The notes below the pieces were generated by a model. The model had not been told where the DNA came from, did no database searches, and saw only the letters and a program-made list of their open reading frames with translations. From CBDUXP01 sp965371225 [NCBI: uncultured bacterium] (lineage in GTDB: Bacteria > Abyssobacteria > SURF-5 > CBDUXP01): a stretch of 13,746 nt of DNA. Positions 1,562-13,746 of this stretch are shown here, piece by piece. The position numbers and the translations under genes are program-made. The stretch lies in the NCBI GenBank assembly GCA_965371225.1, contig CBDUXP010000085.1, forward strand, positions 1-13,746, written 5' to 3'. The first letter of the stretch is position 1. Each line of letters opens with the position of its first letter.

Positions 1562-1703
1562 ACGACTGAGACGCCGCGACGGACCGCGCGAGGCACCCCC
1601 ACCGCTGTCGTGAGAGGACTGTTGGTGGTGGCGCCGCCGTGGTGAGTTGCCGGCATGGCGGAGTGAGCGATCGACGACGAACTTCTCGTGGAGGAGGAGA
1701 GAC

Positions 1704-3734
1704 ATGGCTGACGTTGCACACACGCGCACGCTGGTCTTTGCGGGCCACCGGGGCGCGGGGAAAACCACCCTCATTGAACGCATCCTCGCGGACACGAAGC
1801 AGATCGACCGGATGGGCGACGTGGACGCGGGGACGACGCATGGCGATTACCTGGACGAGGAGAAGGCGCACAAGTTCACGGTCAGCCTGAAGCTCCTGCA
1901 CACGGAGTACGAGGACCACCGGTTCTACCTGGTGGACGTGCCGGGCTACCTGGACCTGCAGGGGGAGCTGGAAGCGGCGTTGCGCGCCGTCGACACCGTG
2001 CTCATCGTGGTGGACGCGACGGCGGGGGTCAGCGTCGGCGCCGTACGCGCCTGGCGGCGGGCCGAAGCCCAAGGGTTGCCGCGGGCCATTTTCGTGACGC
2101 GCCTGGATAAGGAGAACACGAATTTCGTCACGTGCCTCACGGACATTCAGTCCACGTTCGGCGACAAGTGTGTCCCGGTGGTGCTACCCATCGGGCGCGA
2201 GGACCAGTTGTCGGGCGTGTACAACCTGCTCGAAGGCGGCGAGGCGCCGGCCGACGTGCAAGGGGACGCCGACGCGCTCCGCGAGCAACTCATCGAACGC
2301 GCGGCGGAAGGCACCGACGCCCTGACGGAGAAGTATCTCGAGGAGGGCGAACTCTCCGCCGCCGACGTGGCCGCCGGCTTGAAGGCGGGCATCCTCAGCG
2401 GCACGGTCGTGCCCGTCCTGTGCGGTTCGGCCGTCACGGGTGCCGGCATTCGCGCCCTGCTTGATTTCGCCGCCAGCTCCCTGCCCTCGCCCGCGGACCG
2501 CGGCACCGTCGAGGCGGTCAACGGCGAGACCGGCACCGACGTCGCGCCGGATCCCAACGCCCCGTTCTCCGCCCTCGTGTTCAAGAACCTGGCCGATCCG
2601 TTCCTCGGCAACCTCACGCTGATGCGCGTGATGAGCGGCACGCTGAAAGCGGACACGGGATTCACGAACATCACGAAAGGCCAGAAGGAACGCATCGGAC
2701 ACATCCTGCTGCTACAAGGGAAGGAGCAGACACATCTGGCTACCGCGGGGCCGGGGGATGTGATCGCCGTCGCGAAGCTGAAGCATACGAGCACGGGCGA
2801 CACGCTTGGCGACGGGGAATTCGCCGCGCAATTCAAGCCGATCGCGTTCCCGCATCCGGTGGTCAAGCTGGCCATCGATCCCGTGGCGCGCGCCGATGAG
2901 GACAAGATCATGGAGGCGCTCCACAAGATTGTGGCGGAGGACCCGACACTACGCGTGGAACGCAACCGGGAAACGGGAGAGGACCTGATCCTGGGCATGG
3001 GGGACATGCACCTGAAGCTCGTCACCGAACGGCTCAAGACGCGCTACCGGGTGGATGCGACGACGCGGCGGCCGAAGATCGCGTACAAGGAAGCCATCAA
3101 GAAGACGACCTCCGCGCGCTACCGCCACAAGAAGCAGACCGGTGGCAAGGGCCAGTTCGGCGAGGTGGAACTGGAGATCAGTCCGCTCCCGTCGGATCAG
3201 CATTTCGAGTTCGTCAACGACATTCGCGGCGGGGTCATCGCCGGCGGCTTCATCCCGGCCGTGGAGAAGGGGGTGCGCGAGCGCATGGAGCGCGGCGTCG
3301 TCGCGGGGTATCCCGTGGTGAACGTGAAGTGCCGCCTCTATGACGGGATGCAGCATACGGTGGACTCCTCGGAGATGGCGTTCAAGCTGGCCGGGTCGCA
3401 TGCGTTCCGCCTCGCGTGCGAAAGCAACGCCATGTGCCTCCTGGAACCGATTGTGAACGTGGAGGTGCAGGTGCCGGATGAGTTGATGGGCGAGATCAAT
3501 GGGCTGCTCACCACGAAGCGGGGCCGGATCCAGGGCATGGACACCACCGCCTACGGACAAGTTATCCAGGCCCAGATGCCGGAAGCGGAGATGATCGGCT
3601 TCAACGCCGAACTGCGCTCCCACACCGCCGGGCGCGGCACGTACGAGATGCAGTTCTCGCACTACGAGGAGGTGCCCGGCCAGGTCGCCGAGAAGATCAT
3701 CGCGGACGCGAAAGTCAAAAAGGACGAGGACTAG
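1704..3734 (+). CDS. EF-G-like translational GTPase (EF-G-2 type)
   Basis: The 676-residue protein has the five-domain EF-G plan at close to family length. G1 is GHRGAGKT at 14-21. Switch I carries the DAGTTHGDY segment near 41-49. G3 is DVPGY at 78-82 and G4 is TRLD at 132-135. Domain IV holds TGGKGQFGEV, and domain V holds LEPIVNVEVQVPDELMGEI. These signatures fit the EF-G-2/FusA2-like subfamily rather than the main EF-G: canonical EF-G has AHIDAGKT, DTPGH and NKMD. The histidine that promotes GTP hydrolysis is replaced by Y82, as I recall for other EF-G-2 proteins, so ribosome-dependent activity may differ from EF-G. The ATG at 1704 is chosen because GGAGGAG (1691-1697) precedes it and the GTPase fold begins at once. 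The 142 bases upstream (1562-1703) show no clear promoter or terminator. Confidence 0.93.
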   Translation: MADVAHTRTLVFAGHRGAGKTTLIERILADTKQIDRMGDVDAGTTHGDYLDEEKAHKFTVSLKLLHTEYEDHRFYLVDVPGYLDLQGELEAALRAVDTVLIVVDATAGVSVGAVRAWRRAEAQGLPRAIFVTRLDKENTNFVTCLTDIQSTFGDKCVPVVLPIGREDQLSGVYNLLEGGEAPADVQGDADALREQLIERAAEGTDALTEKYLEEGELSAADVAAGLKAGILSGTVVPVLCGSAVTGAGIRALLDFAASSLPSPADRGTVEAVNGETGTDVAPDPNAPFSALVFKNLADPFLGNLTLMRVMSGTLKADTGFTNITKGQKERIGHILLLQGKEQTHLATAGPGDVIAVAKLKHTSTGDTLGDGEFAAQFKPIAFPHPVVKLAIDPVARADEDKIMEALHKIVAEDPTLRVERNRETGEDLILGMGDMHLKLVTERLKTRYRVDATTRRPKIAYKEAIKKTTSARYRHKKQTGGKGQFGEVELEISPLPSDQHFEFVNDIRGGVIAGGFIPAVEKGVRERMERGVVAGYPVVNVKCRLYDGMQHTVDSSEMAFKLAGSHAFRLACESNAMCLLEPIVNVEVQVPDELMGEINGLLTTKRGRIQGMDTTAYGQVIQAQMPEAEMIGFNAELRSHTAGRGTYEMQFSHYEEVPGQVAEKIIADAKVKKDED

Positions 3735-3769
3735 CTCCGGCGAGGCGGCCCGGCGCGGCCCGTGCGCGG

Positions 3770-3778
3770 TGCTATACT
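3770..3778 (+). promoter_or_regulatory. Extended -10 promoter element for the membrane-protein pair
   Basis: TGCTATACT contains a near-consensus TATACT hexamer (3773-3778) with the TG of an extended -10. The expected -35 position is GC-rich and does not match. Transcription would start near 3785, which makes the GTG at 3769 impossible as a start on this transcript and supports the later GTG codons at 3811 or 3844. Confidence 0.55.
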
Positions 3779-3843
3779 CGCGCCCGCAGCGGTTCTTCGC
3801 TGCGTCGCTCGTGAGCGCGCCCCCCCAGCCCGAGGCCATCCCG

Positions 3844-5670
3844 GTGTCCCGCATTCCGCCCCTGCCGTGGATCGCCTGGGCCCTAATCACCGCCTGGGGC
3901 GTGGCGCACGCGCTGGCGCCGGATGCGCCGCCGCGGGCCGCCTGGGGGTTGACCACCTGGGAGGCGTGGCCCGACTCCATGCGGTGGGCCGCCGCTGTTC
4001 TGCTGAGCGTGCTGGCCTTGCCTCCCGTCATCGCCGTGTGGGGAGCCGCCGCCGCACGGATGGGTGCGCCGGTCGCGACGCGCGATGTGCCCCGCAGCGG
4101 ACGCGCCGTACTCGCAGGGGTGTTCGCCTGGCTCTGCTGGATCGGGCGCAGCGGCAACCTCCATTACGGCGACGGCGTCGTCGTCGCCAAGATCGCGCGC
4201 GCGCACGCGTCCCTGCTGCACTACGCGGGGTATAACGACGGGCGGGCGACGGCGGAACAGGTCGTCGAGTTCGCCCTGCACCGAACGGTCTTCGATGCGG
4301 TGCAGGCGCTCGGCCGGATGACGCCCTACGACACGATCGGGCTGACCCACGCGGTGTGCGGCGGCATCCTCGTCTGGCTGCTGACCGGGATGTTCGCCAC
4401 GTGGTGGCCGGGGCGTGGCGCCCGCCAGTTGGCCGCGCTCGGGCTGTTCCTCTGCATGGGCGTCATCCAACTCTGGTTCGGCCACGTGGAGACATACACG
4501 CTCGGCAGCACGGCGTTCGTCGGGTTCCTTGCGGCCGGCAGCCGCACCTTGCAGGGCAAGGCCGGTCTCGCGCGCCCCGCGCTGTGGGCGGCGGGGGCGA
4601 TGACGTTGCACGCGGTGTTCGGCGGCCTCGTGCTCGGCCTCGCGTGGCTGTGGCACGTCCGCTATCGCGCCGCGCCGCGCCCCGTGCGCGCGCGGAACGC
4701 CGTGTGGATCGTCGCGCCGCTGGTACTGGCCGTGGTCTGCATTGTGCTGACCTATCGCAACCTCGGGTTCTCGTGGGAAATGATCGCGGGCTTCCTGGCG
4801 CGCGACGCAGGCGAACGGCCGACCTTCGTCCCCTTGTGGGAGACCACGCGCCTGATGGAGCGCTACACCATGTTCGGTGGCGCGCACCTGCTGGACATGG
4901 TGAACGAAAGCCTGCTCACGGCGCCGTACGCGGCGGTCGCCATTGCCGGCGTGGTACTGGCGCGCGGGGTGCGCCCGTTCCGCGACGGGCCGCTGCCCGG
5001 CTTACTGGTTGCCGGGACGCTCCTGTACCTGGGCGTCATTCTGGTCTTCAATCCGAACCTGGGCGGGCGGAAGGATTGGGACCTCTTCGCGCCGCCGGCC
5101 ATTGGGTACGGGCTGCTGGCCATCCTGCTGCTGTTTCGGACGCTGCCCGACGCGCGTGTGCGCGGCGGCATCATCGCCGCGTGCACGCTGGCCGGCCTGG
5201 CGCACACCGTGCCGTGGCTCGTGCAGAACGCGCGCATCGATCTGCCCCGGTACATCGGGCATCAGTTCTCGGGCGAACTCGCGGCGGCACAAGGACAGAC
5301 GGGCACCGCGCTCCTCGAATACCGGCAGGCGCTGGCGATCTTGCCCACGCCGGAGCTGGCCACCACGTGCGCGGACCTGGCCCGGAAACGCGGCGACCTG
5401 CCCGGCGCGCTGCGCTACTACGCGCAGGCGATCCGCTGGGAGAATCGCAGTGAGCTGGCGCTGTTTGGCGGGTGGGAACACGCGCTGATCGCCAGCGCGG
5501 AGATTCACGAGACGCTCGGCGACGATGCCGCGGCGCGCACGGCATTCGAAGAGGCCATCGCGCTCGCCGCGCGACGACACAGCGCGTTTCCGGAGCGGGC
5601 GGTGGCGGAGGCCGGGCTCGCGCGCATCAAGCAGCGCGCGCCAGCCCACCCACCCGACAGGGCCCCGTGA
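3844..5670 (+). CDS. Polytopic membrane protein, GT-C-like, with C-terminal TPR-like repeats
   Basis: The protein has 608 residues with about eleven hydrophobic segments in the first three quarters. A soluble alanine-rich helical tail follows, starting near FSGELAAAQGQTGTALLEY, which repeats in a TPR-like way (TGTALLEYRQALAI, LPGALRYYAQAI, DAAARTAFEEAI). Conserved-looking polar motifs sit in loops: GNLHYGDG after the third segment, FGHVETY between the fifth and sixth, and GGRKDWDLFAPP before the last two. I associate such motifs with GT-C-fold membrane glycosyltransferases that use a lipid-linked sugar, but no substrate can be assigned. The start is GTG 3844, with GAGG at 3832-3835 eight bases before it; GTG 3811 is the alternative and would add 11 residues. 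Its stop codon overlaps the start of the next gene in GTGA, so the two proteins are probably made together. Confidence 0.75.
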   Translation: MSRIPPLPWIAWALITAWGVAHALAPDAPPRAAWGLTTWEAWPDSMRWAAAVLLSVLALPPVIAVWGAAAARMGAPVATRDVPRSGRAVLAGVFAWLCWIGRSGNLHYGDGVVVAKIARAHASLLHYAGYNDGRATAEQVVEFALHRTVFDAVQALGRMTPYDTIGLTHAVCGGILVWLLTGMFATWWPGRGARQLAALGLFLCMGVIQLWFGHVETYTLGSTAFVGFLAAGSRTLQGKAGLARPALWAAGAMTLHAVFGGLVLGLAWLWHVRYRAAPRPVRARNAVWIVAPLVLAVVCIVLTYRNLGFSWEMIAGFLARDAGERPTFVPLWETTRLMERYTMFGGAHLLDMVNESLLTAPYAAVAIAGVVLARGVRPFRDGPLPGLLVAGTLLYLGVILVFNPNLGGRKDWDLFAPPAIGYGLLAILLLFRTLPDARVRGGIIAACTLAGLAHTVPWLVQNARIDLPRYIGHQFSGELAAAQGQTGTALLEYRQALAILPTPELATTCADLARKRGDLPGALRYYAQAIRWENRSELALFGGWEHALIASAEIHETLGDDAAARTAFEEAIALAARRHSAFPERAVAEAGLARIKQRAPAHPPDRAP

Positions 5671-7583
5671 CCGAGCAGTCCGTCCATCGCGTGCGCGCGG
5701 GCCGTGCGTTGCTCCTGCTGGGCCTGCTCGTCTACTTCTTCGCGCTGCGGCGCTACAGCGGCATGGACCTGGGCACGGAGTGGGTGGACGCCGATTCCGG
5801 GCAGCGCTCCGCAAACGCGGTGCGCGTCTTGAACGGGGAGTTGCCCTATCGCGACTTCTGGGCGGCGTACACCCCCCTGCCCTATTTTCTCAACGCCGGA
5901 TTGTTTCGGGTGTTCGGCGTGCAGCTCTCGTCATTCCGCCTGGGCCTGGCGTTGGTGGGTGCGTGCAGCGCGTTCCTCGTCTACGTCATCACGCGCCGCG
6001 TAGCGTCGCGCACGGCGGCGTCGGTGGCGTGCGCCCTCTGTGCATCGTGGAGCGTACCGAGCCTTAACGTGAATTACGGCACGTGGTATTGCGTTCCGTT
6101 TGCGCTCGGCACTATGTGGGCCGTCGTGCGCGCCACGCAGACCCCGCGCCCGTGGCCGTGGCTGCTCGCCGGTCTCTTCGCCGGAGTCGTGCTGAGTGTG
6201 AAGGTGACCTACGGCACGTACGTCATCACCGCCGCGGGCATTGCCGCCATCGCGCAGGGAGGCGGCAGCCGCGGGTTCCGGCGGCAGGCGGCGACCGCGT
6301 TGCTCGCGTTGGCCGGTGCGGGCAGCCTCACGCTCATCGCGCTCCACAACCGGCCCACCCTCGCCTCGCTCCTGCACTTCGGCCTCCCGCTGGCGTTGTG
6401 CGCCGCCTGGGCGTGGCAGACGACGCGCGCCGGCGCCGAGGGCCGCGGCCCGTGGCCGGCCCTGTGGCTTCTGGCAGGCGGGGTTGCCGCGGCGTTTCTC
6501 CCGTGGGTGCTGTACTTCGGCGTGCGCTGGGATGCCGGCGCGTTCCTGCGCCACGCGTTCATCGGCTACGCGAACATGGGCGCGTCGGTCGCGCTGCCGC
6601 CCGCGAGCCCGAGCGGGCGGGGCCTGCTGCTGGCGCTGGGCGTGGGCGCCGGGCTGGTGGCGCACGCGCGGCTGCCATCGGCCGCACCCCACACCCGTGC
6701 AGGCATCGTCGGACTGACGCTCCTCTTCTGTCTCCTCGGCCTGGCAGTGCCGGTGCAGTCGTCCCCCGACGGTGCACGGTGGCTTTACACCCTGGTGCAC
6801 AGTTGGGTGCACGTGCGCAGTTTCCTTCCCCTGCTCGCCATCTGGTGCGCGCTGGTGGTGCTCTGGCGCGGGCGGGGAAGCGCCACGGCGGACCAGCCCT
6901 TCTTCGCGATTACGGTGTTCGCGACCGCCGTCTTCTTAACCTACTACCCGTACTCCGATGTCAACCACTTCCAGTGGGCCTGGCCGGTGCAAACGATCCT
7001 CGTCTGCGCGCTCGTGGATCGGTACGTCGCACGCGACGGCCGGTGGGCCCGCGCCTGGTGGCTGCTGCCGGCGGGGTTCGCCGCGGTGCAGTGGTTCGAG
7101 CTGGCGACGCACTTCGTACGCCCCGATCCGGCGAGTGGCGCGTGGCAGGCGCGCACGTTCCACTACGCCGCGCAACCCCGCGGCGACGTGTTGGTTCCCG
7201 CAGCGAACGCGGCGCGCGTGGACGCGGCGGTCGCATTCATTCGGGACTTCACCGCGCCCGGCACGCCGGTGCTCGAACTCTACGGCCACCATTTGGGATT
7301 CCTGGCCGACCGGCCGAATCCGACCTACTACGACTACTTCTGGCCGGGCTTTCTGGATGAGGCGGCGCAGCGCGATACCATCGCGGCGCTGGAGGCGCGG
7401 CCCCCCGCGTTGGTGATTGGCCATCGGCGGGATGACGCGGACGAGCCGCTCGCGCGATTCACGGAATACTTCCCGCTGCTCGGCGACTACCTGGCGGTGC
7501 GATACGAGCCGGTGCAGCGTATCGGGCCGTACGTGTTTTACGCAGCGCGGTGGCCGATGCCCGCGCGGCCCGCAGAACCCTAA
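5667..7583 (+). CDS. GT-C family glycosyltransferase, PMT/ArnT-like
   Basis: This 638-residue protein has about twelve to thirteen membrane segments. After the first segment comes a non-cytoplasmic loop rich in acidic residues (DLGTEWVDADSG, residues 34-45). Next is ELPYRDFWAAYTPLPYF at 58-74. The 'LPYRDF...TPL' signature is typical of PMT_2-type GT-C enzymes, which move a sugar from a polyprenyl phosphate donor onto a lipid, glycan or protein on the outer face of the membrane. The C-terminal 120 residues form a soluble domain with VLELYGHHLGFLADR and NPTYYDYFWPGF. The start is the GTG at 5667, chosen because it lies four bases inside the preceding gene (GTGA), just before the first hydrophobic stretch. 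The acceptor is unknown. The stop TAA (7581-7583) overlaps the stop of the convergent phosphoesterase gene. Confidence 0.85.
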   Translation: MTEQSVHRVRAGRALLLLGLLVYFFALRRYSGMDLGTEWVDADSGQRSANAVRVLNGELPYRDFWAAYTPLPYFLNAGLFRVFGVQLSSFRLGLALVGACSAFLVYVITRRVASRTAASVACALCASWSVPSLNVNYGTWYCVPFALGTMWAVVRATQTPRPWPWLLAGLFAGVVLSVKVTYGTYVITAAGIAAIAQGGGSRGFRRQAATALLALAGAGSLTLIALHNRPTLASLLHFGLPLALCAAWAWQTTRAGAEGRGPWPALWLLAGGVAAAFLPWVLYFGVRWDAGAFLRHAFIGYANMGASVALPPASPSGRGLLLALGVGAGLVAHARLPSAAPHTRAGIVGLTLLFCLLGLAVPVQSSPDGARWLYTLVHSWVHVRSFLPLLAIWCALVVLWRGRGSATADQPFFAITVFATAVFLTYYPYSDVNHFQWAWPVQTILVCALVDRYVARDGRWARAWWLLPAGFAAVQWFELATHFVRPDPASGAWQARTFHYAAQPRGDVLVPAANAARVDAAVAFIRDFTAPGTPVLELYGHHLGFLADRPNPTYYDYFWPGFLDEAAQRDTIAALEARPPALVIGHRRDDADEPLARFTEYFPLLGDYLAVRYEPVQRIGPYVFYAARWPMPARPAEP

Positions 7584-8410
7584 ACTGCTACGAAGGCGGC
7601 CTCGAGCGGTTCGAGCCACTCGAGGGGCGTCCGGACGCCGCCGAAATGCACGTCCGGCTTGACGGCGCCGTGGAAATCGCTCCCGCCCGTCTTCACGAGG
7701 CCGAGACGGTCGGCCATGGCCGCGAACCGTTCCCGGTCGTCGAGGGAGTGCTGCGAGTGGAGCACCTCGATGCCACCCAGGCCCATGTCAACGAGATCTT
7801 CGATCAAGGTTTCCACGCCGTTAATCTTCGGATGGGCGACGACGGGCACGCCGCCCGCGTCCCGGATCATGGCGCACGCCTGCTCCGGCGGCAGGAACGC
7901 CTTCTCCTGAAACGCGAGCCCACCGTCGGCGAGATAGAGGTCGAACGCTTCCTGGACGGAGCTGACCTGGCCGGTCTCGAAGAGATGCTTTGCCAGATGG
8001 GGCCGGGCGAGCGCCCCCGCCTGGTCCGGCGTCGTGATGTCCTCCAGTTCAATGGAGAGGCCGAGCCCTTGCAGCAGCTTGATCATGCGCCCGGCCCGGC
8101 CCAGGCGGAAGTCCTTGAAGCGCGCCAACGCTTCGCGCAGGTCTGCGTCAGCGGGATCGAAACCGTATCCGAGGATGTGCACGTCCTTGCCGCGGTGCAT
8201 GGCGCTCAGCTCCACGCCCGGCATCAGGCGGATGCCGGCGTCCGCCGCCGCGGCCACGCCGCGCTCCCAGTAGCCCAGTTCGTCATGATCCGTAATCGCC
8301 AGCGTGGTCACGCCCGCCGCCGCCGCCTGGCCGACCACGTCTTCCGGCGTGAAGCTGCCGTCGCTGAACGTCGTATGACAGTGCAAATCCATGAATCCCG
8401 TACTACGCAT
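7580..8410 (-). CDS. PHP-domain metal-dependent phosphoesterase (TrpH/RNase AM type)
   Basis: This 276-residue cytosolic protein has all the PHP metal-binding motifs: DLHCHTTFSDGS (H10, H12, D17), TDHD (H42), GVELS (E67), VHILGY (H78), AHP (H193) and GGSDFHG (D245, H247). The additional ARPHLA (133-140 region) and GIEVLHSQH (213-221) are characteristic of the YciV/TrpH group. E. coli members of that group act as 3',5'-nucleoside bisphosphate phosphatase and 5'-3' trimming exonuclease on small RNAs and rRNA 5' ends. ATG 8410 is preferred to TTG 8416 because GAGGAG (8423-8418) lies seven bases before it. The gene starts 17 bases after nusB and is the last gene of the leftward operon. Its neighbourhood with nusB fits a role in RNA maturation, but that is inference. 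Confidence 0.9.
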   Translation of the reverse strand: MRSTGFMDLHCHTTFSDGSFTPEDVVGQAAAAGVTTLAITDHDELGYWERGVAAAADAGIRLMPGVELSAMHRGKDVHILGYGFDPADADLREALARFKDFRLGRAGRMIKLLQGLGLSIELEDITTPDQAGALARPHLAKHLFETGQVSSVQEAFDLYLADGGLAFQEKAFLPPEQACAMIRDAGGVPVVAHPKINGVETLIEDLVDMGLGGIEVLHSQHSLDDRERFAAMADRLGLVKTGGSDFHGAVKPDVHFGGVRTPLEWLEPLEAAFVAV

Positions 8411-8427
8411 GCGCAAACTCCTCGGTA

Positions 8428-8865
8428 TTATTCCGCGGCGGTCTCCGTCTCGGCGAATACTCGGTCCAAGACGCCGTTGACGAACTTGCTCCCCTCGGGG
8501 GTGGAGAATTCTTTGGCGATCTCGATCGCCTCGTTGATGGTGACCTTCGGCGGCACATCCTGAATATACCGTAACTCGCAGATCGCCAGCCGCAAGAGAC
8601 TGCGGTCGACCGGGTTCATGCGGGCCAGCGTCCAGTGCTCCGCGGCCGCCGCGAGCGTGGTATCGATCGCGTCCCGGTGCAGCCCGACCAGGTCCACCAG
8701 TTGCTGGGCGTAGCGCCGCGCCTCGGGCCCGGCCGGAAACTGCGCCCAGTAGGCGGCACAGGCGGTCTCCGTGCTATCGCCCGTGGCCTCGATCTGGAAC
8801 AGCAGTTGGAGCGCCTTCTCGCGCGCTTTGCGGCGCGCGCCGCGGCGGCTGGGGTCCCGGGGCAT
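8428..8865 (-). CDS. nusB: Transcription antitermination factor NusB
   Basis: This 145-residue protein is of normal length for NusB, which with NusE (ribosomal protein S10) binds boxA RNA and supports rRNA antitermination. The basic N-terminus RRGARRKAREKALQLLFQIE matches the family's first helix. The C-terminal half contains MNPVDRSLLRLAICELRY, then INEAIEIAKEFSTPEGSKFV and NGVLDRV, the most conserved stretch of the family. Its ATG (8865-8863) follows the ribH stop by four bases with only a weak ribosome-binding site, so translation is likely coupled. A ribH-nusB junction is common in many Gram-negative bacteria. Confidence 0.97.
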   Translation of the reverse strand: MPRDPSRRGARRKAREKALQLLFQIEATGDSTETACAAYWAQFPAGPEARRYAQQLVDLVGLHRDAIDTTLAAAAEHWTLARMNPVDRSLLRLAICELRYIQDVPPKVTINEAIEIAKEFSTPEGSKFVNGVLDRVFAETETAAE

Positions 8866-8869
8866 GGCG

Positions 8870-9334
8870 TCAGATTCGCTCGAAGAGGTCCGTGATTTCG
8901 AGGGCGGTCACGGCCGCATCGTATCCTTTGTTGCCCACTTTGGTCCCGGCGCGCTCGACCGCCTGCTCGATGGTGTCCGTGGTGATGACACCGTAGATGA
9001 CCGGGACGCCGGACTGCAAACTCACCTGCGCGATGCCCTTCGTCACTTCCGCGCTGATGTACTCGAAGTGCGGGGTCCCGCCGCGGATCAACGCCCCCAG
9101 ACAGATCACCGCGTCGTAATCCTCGCTCATGGCCATCCGCTGGGCGCCGAGGGGAATCTCGAACGAGCCGGGCACCCACGCGATGGTGATCTCCTCGTCC
9201 TTCACGCCGTGCCGCGTCAGCCCGTCCAGGCACCCTTCGAGCAGCTTCGTGACGATGAACTCGTTGAACCGCGAGACGATAATGCCGTACCGCTTTCCAG
9301 TCGCAACGAGTTGTCCTTCAATAGTCCGGGGCAT
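8870..9334 (-). CDS. ribH: 6,7-dimethyl-8-ribityllumazine synthase
   Basis: This 154-residue protein condenses 5-amino-6-ribitylamino-uracil with 3,4-dihydroxy-2-butanone-4-phosphate, the penultimate step of riboflavin synthesis. Family motifs are complete: [14 protein letters not shown] at 21-34, [12 protein letters not shown] at 54-65, and [13 protein letters not shown] at 80-92 with catalytic His89. The C-terminal [11 protein letters not shown] carries the phosphate-binding arginine region. Length and motifs suggest the usual pentameric or icosahedral enzyme. AAAGGA stands seven bases before the ATG, a proper ribosome-binding site, unlike the methyltransferase gene just upstream, whose stop is 30 bases away. 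Confidence 0.97.
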
Positions 9335-9364
9335 GGAATGGTCCTTTCTCTGTCGTCGACGCGC

Positions 9365-10159
9365 TCAGCGCGCCGCCTTCTCCGCCACGATGAACATGTA
9401 ATCTCCCATGCCGCTCGTGAACTCGGCCGCCACGTCGGCGAACCGGCCGGTATGCAAATCGTCCAATAGCGCCGTGCAGCCGCGCTCCACCTCGGCCGGG
9501 AGGCCGAACTGCGCAAAAAGGGAAATGCCGGCCCGCACCGTCGGGTCGAAGTAGAGCACGGGGCGCTGCTTGCCACAGTAGAGGAACAGGTCTTGCAACT
9601 CCGGCGAGACCACGTACGGCTCCCGCGCGATCCGCGTAAAACCGGCGTCGGTCAGGGCCGCGAGGATCATTTCACCTGTAGACATCACCGCCGCCCCGCG
9701 ACGCATGGCGACGGGGAAGTAGGCATTCAGCCAGTAGTCGCGCATCTGCTCGGGCGTCGAGGTGAAGAGCACCAATCGCCCCGCGTCCATCACGCGATAC
9801 GCTTCCCGAAACGCGGGCCCCAGCGCCGGGAAATGGTGGATGGCATTCGTGCAGACCACCCCGTCGAACACCCCGTCGCGGAACGGCAGGGCCGTCGCGT
9901 CGCCCAGGTGCCAGCGCACGTGCGCGGCTTTCCCCGCAGCTTCCCCCAGCATGCGGCGCGACAGGTCCACTCCCGTCATGTTGAGCCCGTGGTCCGCGAG
10001 CGCCCGCGTATAGTTGCCCGTGCCGCACGCCAGGTCCAGGTAGCGCCCGGCCGGCCGCGGCTGCAGCAACGCATGGAGCTGCGCCGCGATACCGGGGTCG
10101 GCGCGGCGGGTGGCGTCGTAGCCCAGGCCGATGGAGTCGTATACGGCGGTGGCGCTCAT
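9365..10159 (-). CDS. Class I SAM-dependent methyltransferase inside the riboflavin operon
   Basis: The 264-residue protein has a Rossmann-type methyltransferase core. Motif I is YLDLACGTGNYT at 40-51. The acidic residue after strand 2 lies in MTGVDLS, motif II is GDATALPF, and FDGVVCTNAIHHFP is the motif IV/post-IV region of UbiE/BioC-like enzymes. The N-terminus YDSIGLGYDATRRADP is a recognisable cap shared by a group of uncharacterised small-molecule methyltransferases. The C-terminal third is less conserved and would hold the substrate. No substrate can be named. It lies 14 bases after ribBA and 30 before ribH, on the same strand, with no Shine-Dalgarno sequence before its ATG (CCGGCCTGCCCCGC), so it probably depends on translation of ribBA. 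It is not a known riboflavin-pathway enzyme; modification of a flavin or pathway intermediate is a hypothesis only. Confidence 0.88.
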   Translation of the reverse strand: MSATAVYDSIGLGYDATRRADPGIAAQLHALLQPRPAGRYLDLACGTGNYTRALADHGLNMTGVDLSRRMLGEAAGKAAHVRWHLGDATALPFRDGVFDGVVCTNAIHHFPALGPAFREAYRVMDAGRLVLFTSTPEQMRDYWLNAYFPVAMRRGAAVMSTGEMILAALTDAGFTRIAREPYVVSPELQDLFLYCGKQRPVLYFDPTVRAGISLFAQFGLPAEVERGCTALLDDLHTGRFADVAAEFTSGMGDYMFIVAEKAAR

Positions 10160-10173
10160 GCGGGGCAGGCCGG

Positions 10174-11376
10174 TTAGATGGCTTGGGTAATGAGGTGTCC
10201 GAGCTTGTCGCGCTTGGTTCTCAGGTACTTCGCGTTGTGCGGATTCGCCGGCAGCTCGATGGGCACCCGCTCGACGATTTCGATGTTGTACGCCTCGAGC
10301 CCGACGACTTTGCGCGGGTTGTTCGTCAGCAGCCGCATGCGGCGCACCCCCAGGTCCACGAGAATCTGCGCGCCGATGCCGTAATCGCGCAGGTCGGGCT
10401 TGAACCCAAGCTTCTCATTCGCCTCCACGGTGTCCAGTCCTTCGTCCTGCAGGGCGTACGCCCGCAGCTTGTTGTGCAGCCCGATGCCGCGCCCCTCCTG
10501 CCGCATATAGAGCAGGACGCCGCAGCCTTCCTCGCCGATCATCTCCAGCGCCCGATGAAGCTGCGGTCCGCAGTCGCACCGCTGCGAGGCAAACACGTCG
10601 CCGGTCAGGCATTCGCTGTGCACGCGCACGAGCGGCGCATCCGCCGCGTCCAGATCGCCGCGGACGAACGCGATGTGGTGCTGGTTGTCGATCGTCGTCT
10701 CGTACACGTACGCGCCGAACTCGCCCTGCGGCGTCGGGATCGTGGTGGTCACCATGCGTTCCACGAGCAATTCCGTGCGGCGCCGGTACTTGATCAGGTC
10801 TTCGATGGAGCAGATCTTCAGCCCATGCTCCGCGGCGAACAGTTCCAGGTCCGGCAGCCGCGCCATGGTGCCGTCATCGGTCATGATTTCGCAGATGATG
10901 CCCGCGGGATTCAGCCCCGCCAGGCGCGCCAAGTCCACGCTACCCTCGGTCTGCCCCGCACGCTGCAGCACGCCGCCCGGTTTCGCGCGCAGCGGGAAAA
11001 TGTGGCCCGGCCGCACGATGTCCGTCGGATTCGCGTCCGGCGCGCTGGCCGCCTCGATGGTGCGGGCGCGGTCCGCGGCGGAGATGCCCGTGGTGACGCC
11101 CTCCCGCGCTTCGATGCTCACGGTGAACGCGGTCGAAAACTGCGCCTCGTTGTCCGCCACCATCTGGGGCAACTGCAACCGATCGCACTTCTCCGGCGTG
11201 AGGGCGAGGCAGACCAAGCCGCGCCCGAACATGGCCATGAAGTTGATCGCGTCCGGCGTGACATGATCCGACGCCAGGAACAGGTCGCCCTCATTCTCGC
11301 GGTTTTCGTCATCCACGAGGACCACCATCTTGCCCTGGGCCACGTCCTCAAGTATTTCCGGAATGGGACTAAACAT
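10174..11376 (-). CDS. ribBA: Bifunctional 3,4-dihydroxy-2-butanone-4-phosphate synthase / GTP cyclohydrolase II
   Basis: This 400-residue fusion provides both entry reactions of riboflavin synthesis. The RibB half (about 1-200) makes dihydroxybutanone phosphate from ribulose-5-phosphate and has [11 protein letters not shown] at 22-32, [11 protein letters not shown] near 97-107 and [18 protein letters not shown] at 122-139. The RibA half (about 205-400) opens GTP. Its zinc cysteines are C256, C267 and C269 in [19 protein letters not shown], followed by RQEGRGIGL at 292-300 and LTNNPRK. All key residues are present in both halves, so neither activity looks lost. The start is ATG 11376, preceded by GGAGGAGG five bases upstream; the open frame extends much further upstream, but that lies across ribE in another frame. 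It follows ribE by 32 bases. Confidence 0.97.
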
Positions 11377-11408
11377 GGTCGCCTCCTCCGAAGGGGCCGT
11401 CGCGCCGG

Positions 11409-12056
11409 CTAGAAGCCGTACGCCCGCAGGCGCTCCTCGGTGAGCCCGGACGCCGCGGCTTCGGGCGGGCCGCCGCGCAGATACCGGTGCACGTACTTGC
11501 CGATCAGATCCATCTCCACATTCACCGCCGTCCCGGCGCGCAGCGCGCCCAGTGTCGTCTCCCGCAACGTCGCGGGAATCACGCTCACGGTCACGCTCTC
11601 CGGCGTCCAGGCGGCGACGGTCAGGCTGATGCCATCGATGGTGATGGAGCCTTTGTCGACTACAAACTTCATCAAGTCCTCGGGCACGGTGAAGGTCATG
11701 AGCACGGCGTTCGACTCCCGCCGCTGCTCCACGAGCCGACCGGTGCCGTCCACGTGCCCGAGCACCCAGTGCCCGCCCATCTTGTCCCCCACGCGCAGCG
11801 ACGGTTCCACGTTCACGCGATCGCCCGGCCGCCGCTCGCCCAGCGTGCTCGCACGGATCGTTTCCGGAACGGCGTCCATGGTCACGCGCGCGCCCTGCAC
11901 CCCCGTCGCCGTCAGGCACACGCCGTTGATGCTGATGCTGTCGCCCAGCGCCACCTCGGGCGCGGTTCGGGGCATCTCGACGGTCACCTCGTAGCCCGCG
12001 CCCGCGGGCTGCAGGACGCGCACGGTGCCCAGTTCGCGAATCAGGCCGGTGAACAT
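11409..12056 (-). CDS. ribE: Riboflavin synthase, alpha chain
   Basis: This 215-residue protein dismutates two lumazine molecules into riboflavin and the pyrimidine. It is built of two similar lumazine-binding barrels. The first opens with [12 protein letters not shown] and carries SINGVCLT at 42-49. The second starts around [13 protein letters not shown] (94-106) and carries [10 protein letters not shown] at the equivalent place. The C-terminal [15 protein letters not shown] is the family's usual ending. ATG 12056 is fixed by the invariant MFTG start and by GGAG eight bases before it, inside the end of ribD; the ribD stop is only two bases away. An in-frame extension upstream of this ATG has no homology and runs over ribD. 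Confidence 0.97.
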
Positions 12057-12058
12057 TT

Positions 12059-13177
12059 CTACGGCTCCAGCGGCCGCACCCAGCCGCGAATACACAGGTC
12101 CTCGCCAAGCCACTCCGTGGTCACGTCCGTCAGGGTGGGCACGCGGTCCATGCGCCCCGCCCCGTCGCCCGCGAGAGGACCGGGCGCGTCCGCGCCGCCG
12201 CACACCTTCGGCGCCAGGTAACAGGCTACTTCGTCCACCACGTCCGCTTGCCACGCCGACGCGTGCACCGTCGGCCCGCCTTCCACGAGCACGCTGTGCA
12301 GCTCCGCCTCCAGGCAGCGGGTGAGCAGCGCCTTCCAGCTCACCTGCCCCTGCTTCGCGCGCAGGGACCACACCTCCGCCCCAGCGCGTTCGAGCGCGCG
12401 CACGCGCTTGTGCCCCGGCTTGAGCGTGGTGGCGATAATCGTCGGCGCGGCGGACCGCTCCTGAATAACCTTTGCGGTCGCCGGCGTGCGCGCCTGCGAG
12501 TCGAGGATGATACGCACCGGGTCGCGCCCCTGCCCTTTCGGCAGGCGCGTGGTCAGCGCCGGGTCGTCCGCCCGCACCGTGCCCACCCCCACGAGAATCG
12601 CGTCGTGCCGATCGCGCAGGCGGTGCCCGTGTTCGCGCGCGGCGGGCCCGGTCACCCACCGGCTGTGCCCGGTGCGCGTGGCGACTTTGCCGTCGAGCGT
12701 CATGGCCCACTTGGCGATCACCCGCGGGCGCCCGCGCAGCACGGCGGTGAGGAAGGGCGCGTTCAGCCGCCGCGCCTCGGCGGCGCGCAACCCGCGTTCC
12801 ACCGTAATGCCCGCCTGGCGCAGCCGCTTCGCGCCCCCGCCGGCCACGTGCGGGTTCGGGTCGTCCATGGCGTAGACCACGCGCTTCACTCCGGCGGTGA
12901 GGATGGCTTCGGTGCAGGGGCCCGTGCGGCCCACGTGGTTGCAGGGCTCGAGCGTGATGTACAGGGTGCCGCCCTCGGCGCGCGGGCCGGCGGCGATGAG
13001 CGCGTTCACCTCGGCGTGGGGCTGGCCCGCCGCGTGGTGGTGGCCGCGGCCGACGATGGCGCCCTTGTTGACGGCGACGGCGCCCACGAGCGGATTCGGC
13101 GCGGTGCGCCCCGCCGCGCGGCCGGCCAGCGCCAGCGCTTCGTCCATGTACGTCTCGTCTGCCGGGCTGAACGACAT
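12059..13177 (-). CDS. ribD: Bifunctional diaminohydroxyphosphoribosylaminopyrimidine deaminase / reductase
   Basis: This 372-residue protein is of usual RibD length. The N-terminal deaminase domain has APNPLVGAV at 26-34, the zinc ligand and catalytic pair in PHAE (H54, E56), and the remaining ligands in [11 protein letters not shown] (C79, C88). The C-terminal reductase domain begins near [15 protein letters not shown], continues with [13 protein letters not shown] and ends with [14 protein letters not shown], the NADPH/substrate-binding features of the family. ATG 13177 is chosen because the deaminase fold starts here and AAGGAG (13193-13188) lies 10 bases upstream; the frame stays open further upstream only because the untranslated leader lacks stops. 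It is the first gene of the operon and sits about 200 bases behind the FMN aptamer. Confidence 0.97.
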
Positions 13178-13178
13178 C

Positions 13179-13211
13179 GCCCCAAGTCTCCTTCGTTCGG
13201 ACACTCGGGGC
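13179..13211 (-). promoter_or_regulatory. Hairpin enclosing the ribD ribosome-binding site
   Basis: On the transcript, GCCCCGAGU (13211-13203) can pair with ACUUGGGGC (13187-13179): nine pairs including one G-U, closing a 15-base loop. The Shine-Dalgarno AAGGAG (13193-13188) lies in the loop against the 3' arm, and that arm ends one base before the ribD AUG. A stable helix here would occlude the space between the ribosome-binding site and the start codon. No mutual exclusion with the aptamer can be shown by eye. Confidence 0.5.
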
Positions 13212-13292
13212 ACAGAGGCACGCGTCGCCAGAGACACCTCACGCGGCGCCCGCCGACACCCGTAGCAGCAGCAGCACGGCTGCCGCCACCCT

Positions 13293-13342
13293 GGCCTGAC
13301 ATCACAACACCCCGGAGCGCACACTACACTCCGGGGCAGGCC
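13293..13342 (-). terminator. Two-tier hairpin between FMN aptamer and ribD: probable terminator or expression platform
   Basis: The transcript has a contiguous 5' arm, GGCCUG (13342-13337) then CCCCGGAGUG (13336-13327). The inner part pairs with CGCUCCGGGG (13319-13310): ten pairs with one G-U and a seven-base loop. The outer part pairs with CAGGCC (13298-13293), leaving an 11-base one-sided bulge UGUUGUGAUGU. If only the inner stem forms, the bulge becomes a U-containing 3' tail, as in a weak intrinsic terminator. The U-tract is poor, so premature termination is plausible rather than demonstrated. Confidence 0.55.
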
Positions 13343-13352
13343 ATACGGGTCC

Positions 13353-13367
13353 CGTTGCCTGGCAACG
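13353..13367 (-). repeat. Perfect small inverted repeat after the aptamer
   Basis: CGTTGCC-A-GGCAACG lies between the aptamer's closing helix and the two-tier hairpin. In RNA it would form a six-pair stem with a CAG loop. The segment on its 3' side also contains ACCCG, which can pair with the CGGGU next to the 3' strand of aptamer helix P1, offering an alternative fold that links ligand binding to the downstream structure. Confidence 0.5.
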
Positions 13368-13373
13368 ACTACC

Positions 13374-13521
13374 CGGTCCGCTCTATCATCCGGACTCTTA
13401 CCGTCGGCCGAGGACTCACACCTCGTCAGGGTTGGCCGTACTACCGAGCCAACCGTCGCGGGCTTCGGAGCTTGCGCCCCGTCACCGCCGGTCGGGAATT
13501 GCACCCTGCCCCGAGGGACCG
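13374..13521 (-). promoter_or_regulatory. FMN riboswitch (RFN element)
   Basis: The leader of the rib operon contains the conserved FMN aptamer: GGGGCAGGGTGCAATTCCC followed by GACCGGCGGT, then AGCCCGCGA, GAGTCCTCGGCCGACGGT and AGTCCGGATG in the canonical order. Closing helix P1 is formed by CGGUCC-CUC (13521-13513) and GAG-C-GGACCG (13383-13374) with one bulged C. Known FMN riboswitches bind flavin mononucleotide and shut off riboflavin synthesis or transport genes. Its position 197 bases before ribD and just after a promoter makes feedback control of the whole operon the natural reading. Confidence 0.97.
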
Positions 13522-13538
13522 TTATATCTGGTGAACTA

Positions 13539-13567
13539 AGTTTACCCCGCTCTGGGGGCCGGGTCAA
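13539..13567 (-). promoter_or_regulatory. Sigma-70-type promoter of the riboflavin operon
   Basis: On the minus strand TTGACC (13567-13562) and TAAACT (13544-13539) are separated by exactly 17 bases, close to consensus. Transcription would begin around 13532, about ten bases before aptamer helix P1. The AAAAAT just upstream of the -35 box may act as an UP-like element. Confidence 0.85.
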
Positions 13568-13569
13568 GG

Positions 13570-13593
13570 ATTTTTGGCCAGCCGGCCAGAAAT
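13570..13593. repeat. Imperfect palindrome immediately upstream of the rib promoter
   Basis: ATTTTTGGCC and GGCCAGAAAT flank a four-base AGCC spacer. Nine of ten positions match (the tenth is T opposite G). It abuts the -35 box of the rib promoter, so it could be a regulator-binding site. No known operator is recognised. Confidence 0.4.
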
Positions 13594-13634
13594 AAGCTTC
13601 GTGGGGAGATCTGCCCCTGCCCCCGAAACGACGA

Positions 13635-13664
13635 GAGCCCGGGCGCGTTGGTGCGCCCGGGCTC
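13635..13664 (-). terminator. Strong GC hairpin, probable terminator of the gene at the right edge
   Basis: GAGCCCGGGCGC and GCGCCCGGGCTC form a perfect 12-bp stem around a six-base loop. It lies about 50 bases after the stop codon of the leftward gene at the right edge and before the rib promoter. The tail on the minus strand is TCGTCGTTT, only moderately U-rich, so termination may be incomplete; the other strand is similar. Confidence 0.65.
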
Positions 13665-13714
13665 CGTTCGATTGCACACTCGTCAGCGGGAACCGCGACG
13701 AGCCGCGGTCGGGA

Positions 13715-13746
13715 CTACCAGCGGTCCCGGCGTCCGCCGCCGCCGC
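13715..13746 (-). CDS. C-terminal end of a glycine/arginine-rich protein, possibly an RNA-binding protein
   Basis: Only the last codons are inside the window, ending GGGGRRDRW before a TAG at 13717-13715. Runs of glycine followed by arginine and aromatic residues at the extreme C-terminus are typical of small bacterial RRM-type RNA-binding proteins, but ten residues cannot prove it. The frame is supported by the terminator-like hairpin about 50 bases downstream. The rest of the gene lies to the right of the window. Confidence 0.4.
   Translation of the reverse strand, partial: GGGGRRDRW

Follow-up and report, generated by a model that had tools for sequence, protein, structure and literature searches.

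The structure closest to the protein described here, PDB 3EGE, is a putative methyltransferase from Anabaena variabilis. Its entry title mentions antibiotic biosynthesis, but to our knowledge no function is known for it, and no paper naming it is found among the literature matches listed. In the formation of toxoflavin, ToxA-type enzymes act as N-methylating enzymes. A precedent for methylation of a flavin is RosA, the 8-demethyl-8-aminoriboflavin dimethyltransferase (PDB 4D7K), which, in the available excerpts of its description, has 353 residues, an N-terminal helical bundle (residues 1-98) and a Rossmann part (residues 179-353; PMC4982073). The psd operon for pseudoiodinine combines RibA/RibD-like enzymes with methyltransferases, as given in the available excerpt of its description (PMC9911603).

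The locus studied here lies in a window of 13,746 nucleotides, which is the whole stretch of DNA analysed. It contains a gene encoding a SAM-dependent methyltransferase (MT) within a set of riboflavin genes. The MT is an ordinary class I methyltransferase from an uncharacterised subfamily, and its gene has been added singly to a rib operon that is otherwise conserved.

Organization of the rib Operon

Behind an FMN riboswitch the genes are ordered ribD-ribE-ribBA-MT-ribH-nusB-PHP on one strand (Table 1). The gap between ribBA and the MT gene is 14 nt and that between the MT gene and ribH is 30 nt, in line with the original prediction of an MT gene placed between ribBA and ribH on the same strand, with short gaps and behind the riboswitch (RF00050, 94.5 bits). 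When inspected by eye, Shine-Dalgarno-like stretches are seen upstream of ribD, ribBA, and ribH. No clear one precedes the ATG of the MT gene, as expected if it has no ribosome-binding site of its own, and nusB likewise lacks a clear one. A simple promoter scan of positions 7500-13746 gives one site where 0.5 are expected by chance, and the promoter-like site is for this reason weak evidence. A simple scan of the minus strand of the same interval found no terminator-like sites. The short gaps, the signals around the MT gene and the two scans together make it likely that the MT gene shares transcription with the rib genes and is coupled to ribBA. The proposed FMN co-regulation and coupling to ribBA thus stand, the FMN control as predicted from sequence.

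Elsewhere in the window, an EF-G-like paralogue with all EF-G domains by Pfam is encoded at 1647-3734 (+); in 28 genomes no match exceeds 46% identity to it. Two large proteins are encoded head to tail at 3769-5670 and 5671-7583 (+), and judged by eye from their translations they are probably membrane-embedded.

Table 1. Features of the rib operon and its upstream region (positions in the window).
Feature	Position	Strand	Evidence and remarks
Promoter-like site	13539..13567	-	Consensus scan; just upstream of riboswitch; weak evidence
FMN riboswitch RF00050	13373..13522	-	cmscan, 94.5 bits, E 3.8e-21; upstream of ribD
ribD	12059..13177	-	Pfam and NCBIfam; ATG 13177
ribE (riboflavin synthase)	11409..12056	-	Pfam and NCBIfam; ATG 12056
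ribBA	10174..11376	-	Pfam and NCBIfam; ATG 11376, GGAGGAGG upstream
Class I SAM-dependent methyltransferase (MT), 3EGE-like subfamily, 264 aa	9365..10159	-	ORF, Pfam, alignment with four relatives, model pLDDT 84.7
ribH (lumazine synthase)	8870..9334	-	Pfam and NCBIfam
nusB	8428..8865	-	Pfam and NCBIfam
PHP-domain phosphatase-like protein	7580..8416	-	Pfam; start codon uncertain, 8416 or 8410

The Methyltransferase Gene and Its SAM Site

The MT scores 80.8 bits against Pfam Methyltransf_11 (cut-off 21.2) and 77.8 bits against Methyltransf_25 (cut-off 27), which identifies it as a class I SAM methyltransferase. The SAM-site stretch YLDLACGTGNY is intact and for the most part invariant in an alignment with four relatives that are 40-49% identical to the MT and align with it from end to end, with a common start and end. 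The reading frame can be taken as real, since both its ends are shared with the relatives and the SAM-site residues are mostly invariant. The claim of a class I methyltransferase with an intact SAM site is thereby confirmed, and from sequence and model the MT is predicted to bind SAM at the usual Rossmann site.

The MT gene has a GC content of 0.683 and a GC3 of 0.875, both on a level with its neighbours; the GC3 of the neighbouring rib genes is 0.85-0.91. This host-like composition indicates that the gene is not a fresh arrival, and that it has been preserved intact within an essential operon, which speaks against it being a mere passenger.

Among the NCBIfam equivalogs 33 models match the MT with E≤0.001, and the best 25 of these 33 all score below their own cut-offs (for instance 61 against a cut-off of 158.35, and 52.9 against 184.95). 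The weak matches to UbiE/MenG, BioC, and other models would fit a housekeeping enzyme of another pathway, such as quinone, malonyl-ACP or RNA methylation, that is found here by chance. Both the scores below cut-off and the absence of the subfamily from nearly all sampled genomes, which is unlike a housekeeping gene, make this a very unlikely explanation.

Fold and Comparison with Known Methyltransferases

A model of the MT was made with AlphaFold2 from a five-row alignment (mean pLDDT 84.7, pTM 0.84). It displays a Rossmann-like α/β fold where the first Rossmann strand comprises residues 39-43. The best fold match among those listed is 3EGE, with a Z-score of 23.5 and an rmsd of 3.5 over 241 residues at 27% identity. 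The two proteins are homologous over most of their length, including the C-terminal region (profile positions 3-239 of 263, E 4.5e-51), which places the MT in a 3EGE-like subfamily. 3EGE is an outer relative; it retains part of the C-terminal signature (DLF...RPELYL...VRAGISSFA), while the stretch LQDLFLYCGK of the MT is only partly retained. The next-best folds among the matches listed are MitM and AtmM (Z 19.6-19.7), and RebM is matched with a Z-score of 17.7. The sequence similarity of these three enzymes to the MT is mainly found in the SAM domain.

Both RosA and the MT are SAM methyltransferases with a Rossmann-like domain. However, the MT has only 264 residues and reaches its first Rossmann strand already at residues 39-43, and the two-domain plan given for RosA in the excerpts of its description, with an N-terminal bundle and a C-terminal Rossmann part in a protein of about 350 residues, is absent. 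With phmmer the MT matches 58 PDB sequences, and RosA (4D7K) is not one of them; it is also missing from the best 60 of 139 profile matches, the best 50 of 1938 fold matches and 50 further fold entries. The domain plan of the MT thus speaks against a RosA-like enzyme.

It could also be imagined that the MT belongs to an azapteridine-like antimetabolite branch, N-methylating a product of early riboflavin intermediates in the way of ToxA in toxoflavin formation. ToxA (8rdl) shares the class I fold of the MT and matches the profile with E 4.7e-14, and the excerpt describing the psd operon shows RibA/RibD-like enzymes and methyltransferases joined in one operon (PMC9911603). The ToxA match is, however, confined to profile positions 5-141, which make up the general SAM domain. 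The operon in the window contains the housekeeping rib genes in one copy each; the additional tailoring genes seen in the excerpt on psd are missing, and no further azapteridine-type genes were seen in it. Such a branch therefore appears highly improbable.

Distribution of the Subfamily

A scan of genome contigs using the MT protein gave five loci, from an Oligoflexia bacterium, Fulvivirga marina, a deltaproteobacterium, Aquimarina algicola, and Longirhabdus pacifica. The first four encode the full-length relatives mentioned above. No homologue with more than 49% identity was found in the genomes searched, which apparently all lie outside the phylum of the window. The MT and the four relatives have the C-terminal signature LQDLFLYxGK...P..Y...R..IS in common, and these five sequences were used to build a subfamily profile.

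At E≤1e-40 the profile finds the subfamily in 1 of 240 genomes sampled from the G001 phylum. For G002 the figures are 3 of 395 genomes at phylum level and 3 of 241 at order level, for the G003 class 7 of 148 (one at 152 bits), and for the G004 family 17 of 249. At phylum level, G003 gives one of 297 genomes above 300 bits and two more with 170-176 bits. The seed genomes are part of these figures, and there is some overlap between the samples. The homologues form a recognisable but sporadic subfamily that has apparently spread horizontally. At E≤0.001 the profile has one or more matches in every one of the 297 genomes in the phylum of G003; methyltransferases are common, so that no particular cause has to be sought when one of them turns up in an operon.

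No DNA match to the MT gene was found in E. coli genomes. Seven phage records match, none of which covers 80% of the query, while 278 plasmid records match and 30 of them reach at least 80% coverage. The three best plasmid loci of these 30 have no rib gene within flanks of 5 kb. On the Alkalihalophilus pseudofirmus plasmid pBpOF4-01 (locus L082, 5069-5789) the subfamily gene is annotated as two CDS and has genes for GNAT, GrpB and an IS110 transposase as neighbours. In L. pacifica (locus L005, 6001-6764) the gene is frameshifted.

The broken genes of L005 and L082 would be in keeping with a decaying remnant without function also in the window. Against this, the MT gene of the window has its full length, can be aligned with four relatives from start to end and shows a host-like GC3, which leaves decay with very little probability. 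The two broken genes were left out of a homologue tree of 34 rows. The MT has no supported sister in this tree, and neither a donor nor a sister lineage is resolved, which counts against the gene being a passenger. Due to the lack of a supported sister and the unusual residue make-up of the MT no donor is claimed.

Genomic Neighbourhoods of the Homologues

Linkage to riboflavin genes was analysed by tblastn (E≤1e-3) with seven proteins from the window (MT, RibD, RibE, RibBA, RibH, NusB, and PHP) on 34 homologue loci, 31 genomic and three from plasmids; four of these are outer relatives with 31-34% identity. The flanks comprised up to about 6 kb on each side, and several were cut by contig ends, L003, L068, L071, L093, L097, L099, and L100 among them. 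Within these flanks none of the 34 loci has a rib, nusB or PHP match. Such matches are also absent from the flanks of L005, giving 0 of 35 loci in total. As a control, all seven genes were recovered in the window, and RibH was found in 59 of 65 ribBA loci. Recurrent rib linkage, which would characterise an accessory of the riboflavin pathway, is thus not seen in any of the 35 loci, which come from genomes apparently outside the window's phylum. In the four seed genomes the MT and ribBA are found on separate contigs. In G001 ribBA and ribH are adjacent, while no ribH match was found within 1.5 kb after ribBA in G002, G003, and G004.

The neighbourhoods of the homologues vary by lineage. They were tabulated for 24 of 28 loci; L003, L093, L096, and L097, where a simple ORF picker dropped the gene, were omitted from this table but included in the linkage analysis. 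A HemW-like gene, the MT gene, and a PF04199 cyclase gene are syntenic in four loci of the Flavobacteriaceae family (L004, L074, L075, and L078; assigned by Pfam in L004 only). In the class of G003, three loci (L003, assigned by Pfam, and L094 and L095, assigned by eye) have a DUF6081 gene upstream and short-chain dehydrogenase genes downstream of the MT gene, on the opposite strand. VOC genes are found near the homologue in L066 and L079, DUF1801 in L071 and L079, AHSA1 in L002 and L073, and DinB in L002. We infer that with the recurring VOC, AHSA1, DUF1801, DinB, GNAT, and GrpB genes the homologues sit among free-standing enzymes of modification or detoxification. In F. marina (L002, 5989-7775) the homologue is followed after 17 nt by AHSA1 and after a further gap of 12 nt by a gene for an FMN-reductase-like flavoprotein, and this neighbour leans away from the passenger explanation.

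The ribBA-ribH Junction in Other Phyla

A search with RibBA (E≤1e-100) found matches in 195 of 208 genomes of one phylum and in 100 of 144 of another. The 30 best-scoring loci of each search, i.e., not a random draw and apparently from phyla other than that of the window, were compared; a further five ribBA loci (L006-L010) in the same run bring the total to 65. In 58 of the 60 loci ribH lies less than 200 nt after ribBA. In one of the remaining two the contig stops 300 bp downstream, and in the other no match to ribH lies within 1.5 kb. None of the 60 contains an MT homologue at E≤1e-5. The window therefore has the usual ribE-ribBA-ribH-nusB order plus one gene. Members of one of the phyla searched have RibBA proteins with up to 68% identity to that of the window. 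This phylum is probably not that of the window, since the EF-G-like paralogue does not exceed 46% identity in the 28 genomes. As the genomes compared apparently come from other phyla, the ribBA-MT-ribH arrangement could be fixed within the window's own.

Origin and Possible Function

The original prediction was that the MT might act on a flavin, a lumazine or a by-product of the pathway, and a survey of homologues for rib linkage had been set beforehand as a check. The homologues proved to be scattered, with none rib-linked in 35 of 35 loci, and with the RosA domain plan also absent the proposed activity finds no support. The idea of a chance passenger, which had been mentioned as well, fits best with sporadic homologues that lack rib linkage. 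This arrangement of an MT gene among rib genes is not reported in the titles and abstract openings of the papers listed, which is no proof of absence.

A methyltransferase co-opted to act on riboflavin or a lumazine, on an aminopyrimidine intermediate or on a reactive by-product, with FMN control that is functional, would explain why an intact and composition-adapted gene is situated amid a complete rib set behind an FMN riboswitch, and the excerpts on RosA provide a precedent for a flavin methyltransferase (PMC4982073). But the homologues are not linked to rib genes in any of the 35 loci, none of the 60 ribBA loci has such an insertion, and the MT is built unlike RosA; we find this explanation unlikely. 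Because the window's phylum seemingly lies outside the genomes compared, a flavin role retains some probability, but beyond position little supports it. That the gene is fixed in the rib operon of this phylum, with the MT methylating lumazine, riboflavin or an intermediate to give an unrecognised modified flavin under FMN feedback, is still less likely.

Most probably, the MT is a roaming methyltransferase of the tailoring or detoxification type that has moved into the rib operon, where its position leads to co-expression. This passenger explanation is favoured because the ribBA-ribH backbone lacks the MT elsewhere, none of 35 loci is rib-linked, the family is sporadic and its neighbourhoods are varied, and also because the nearest folds are 3EGE and the natural-product methyltransferases MitM and AtmM. 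A stand-alone 3EGE-like gene from a sporadic subfamily would have been inserted at the conserved ribBA-ribH junction. It would be transcribed from the promoter of the FMN riboswitch and translated by re-initiation after ribBA, as the sequence suggests. The enzyme would transfer a methyl group from SAM to a small molecule, presumably held under the family-specific C-terminal region marked by LQDLFLYxGK...Rxx-IS. From the family context the substrate would most likely be a secondary metabolite or a xenobiotic and not a riboflavin intermediate, and the MT gene would be under FMN control only by chance, owing to where it lies.

If a flavin is methylated after all, this would indicate an unrecognised modified flavin. 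If the MT is a passenger, the finding has little import beyond annotation, and riboswitch co-regulation by itself should then not be taken to imply a common pathway. The subfamily is uncharacterised, and its C-terminal signature makes it easy to recognise.
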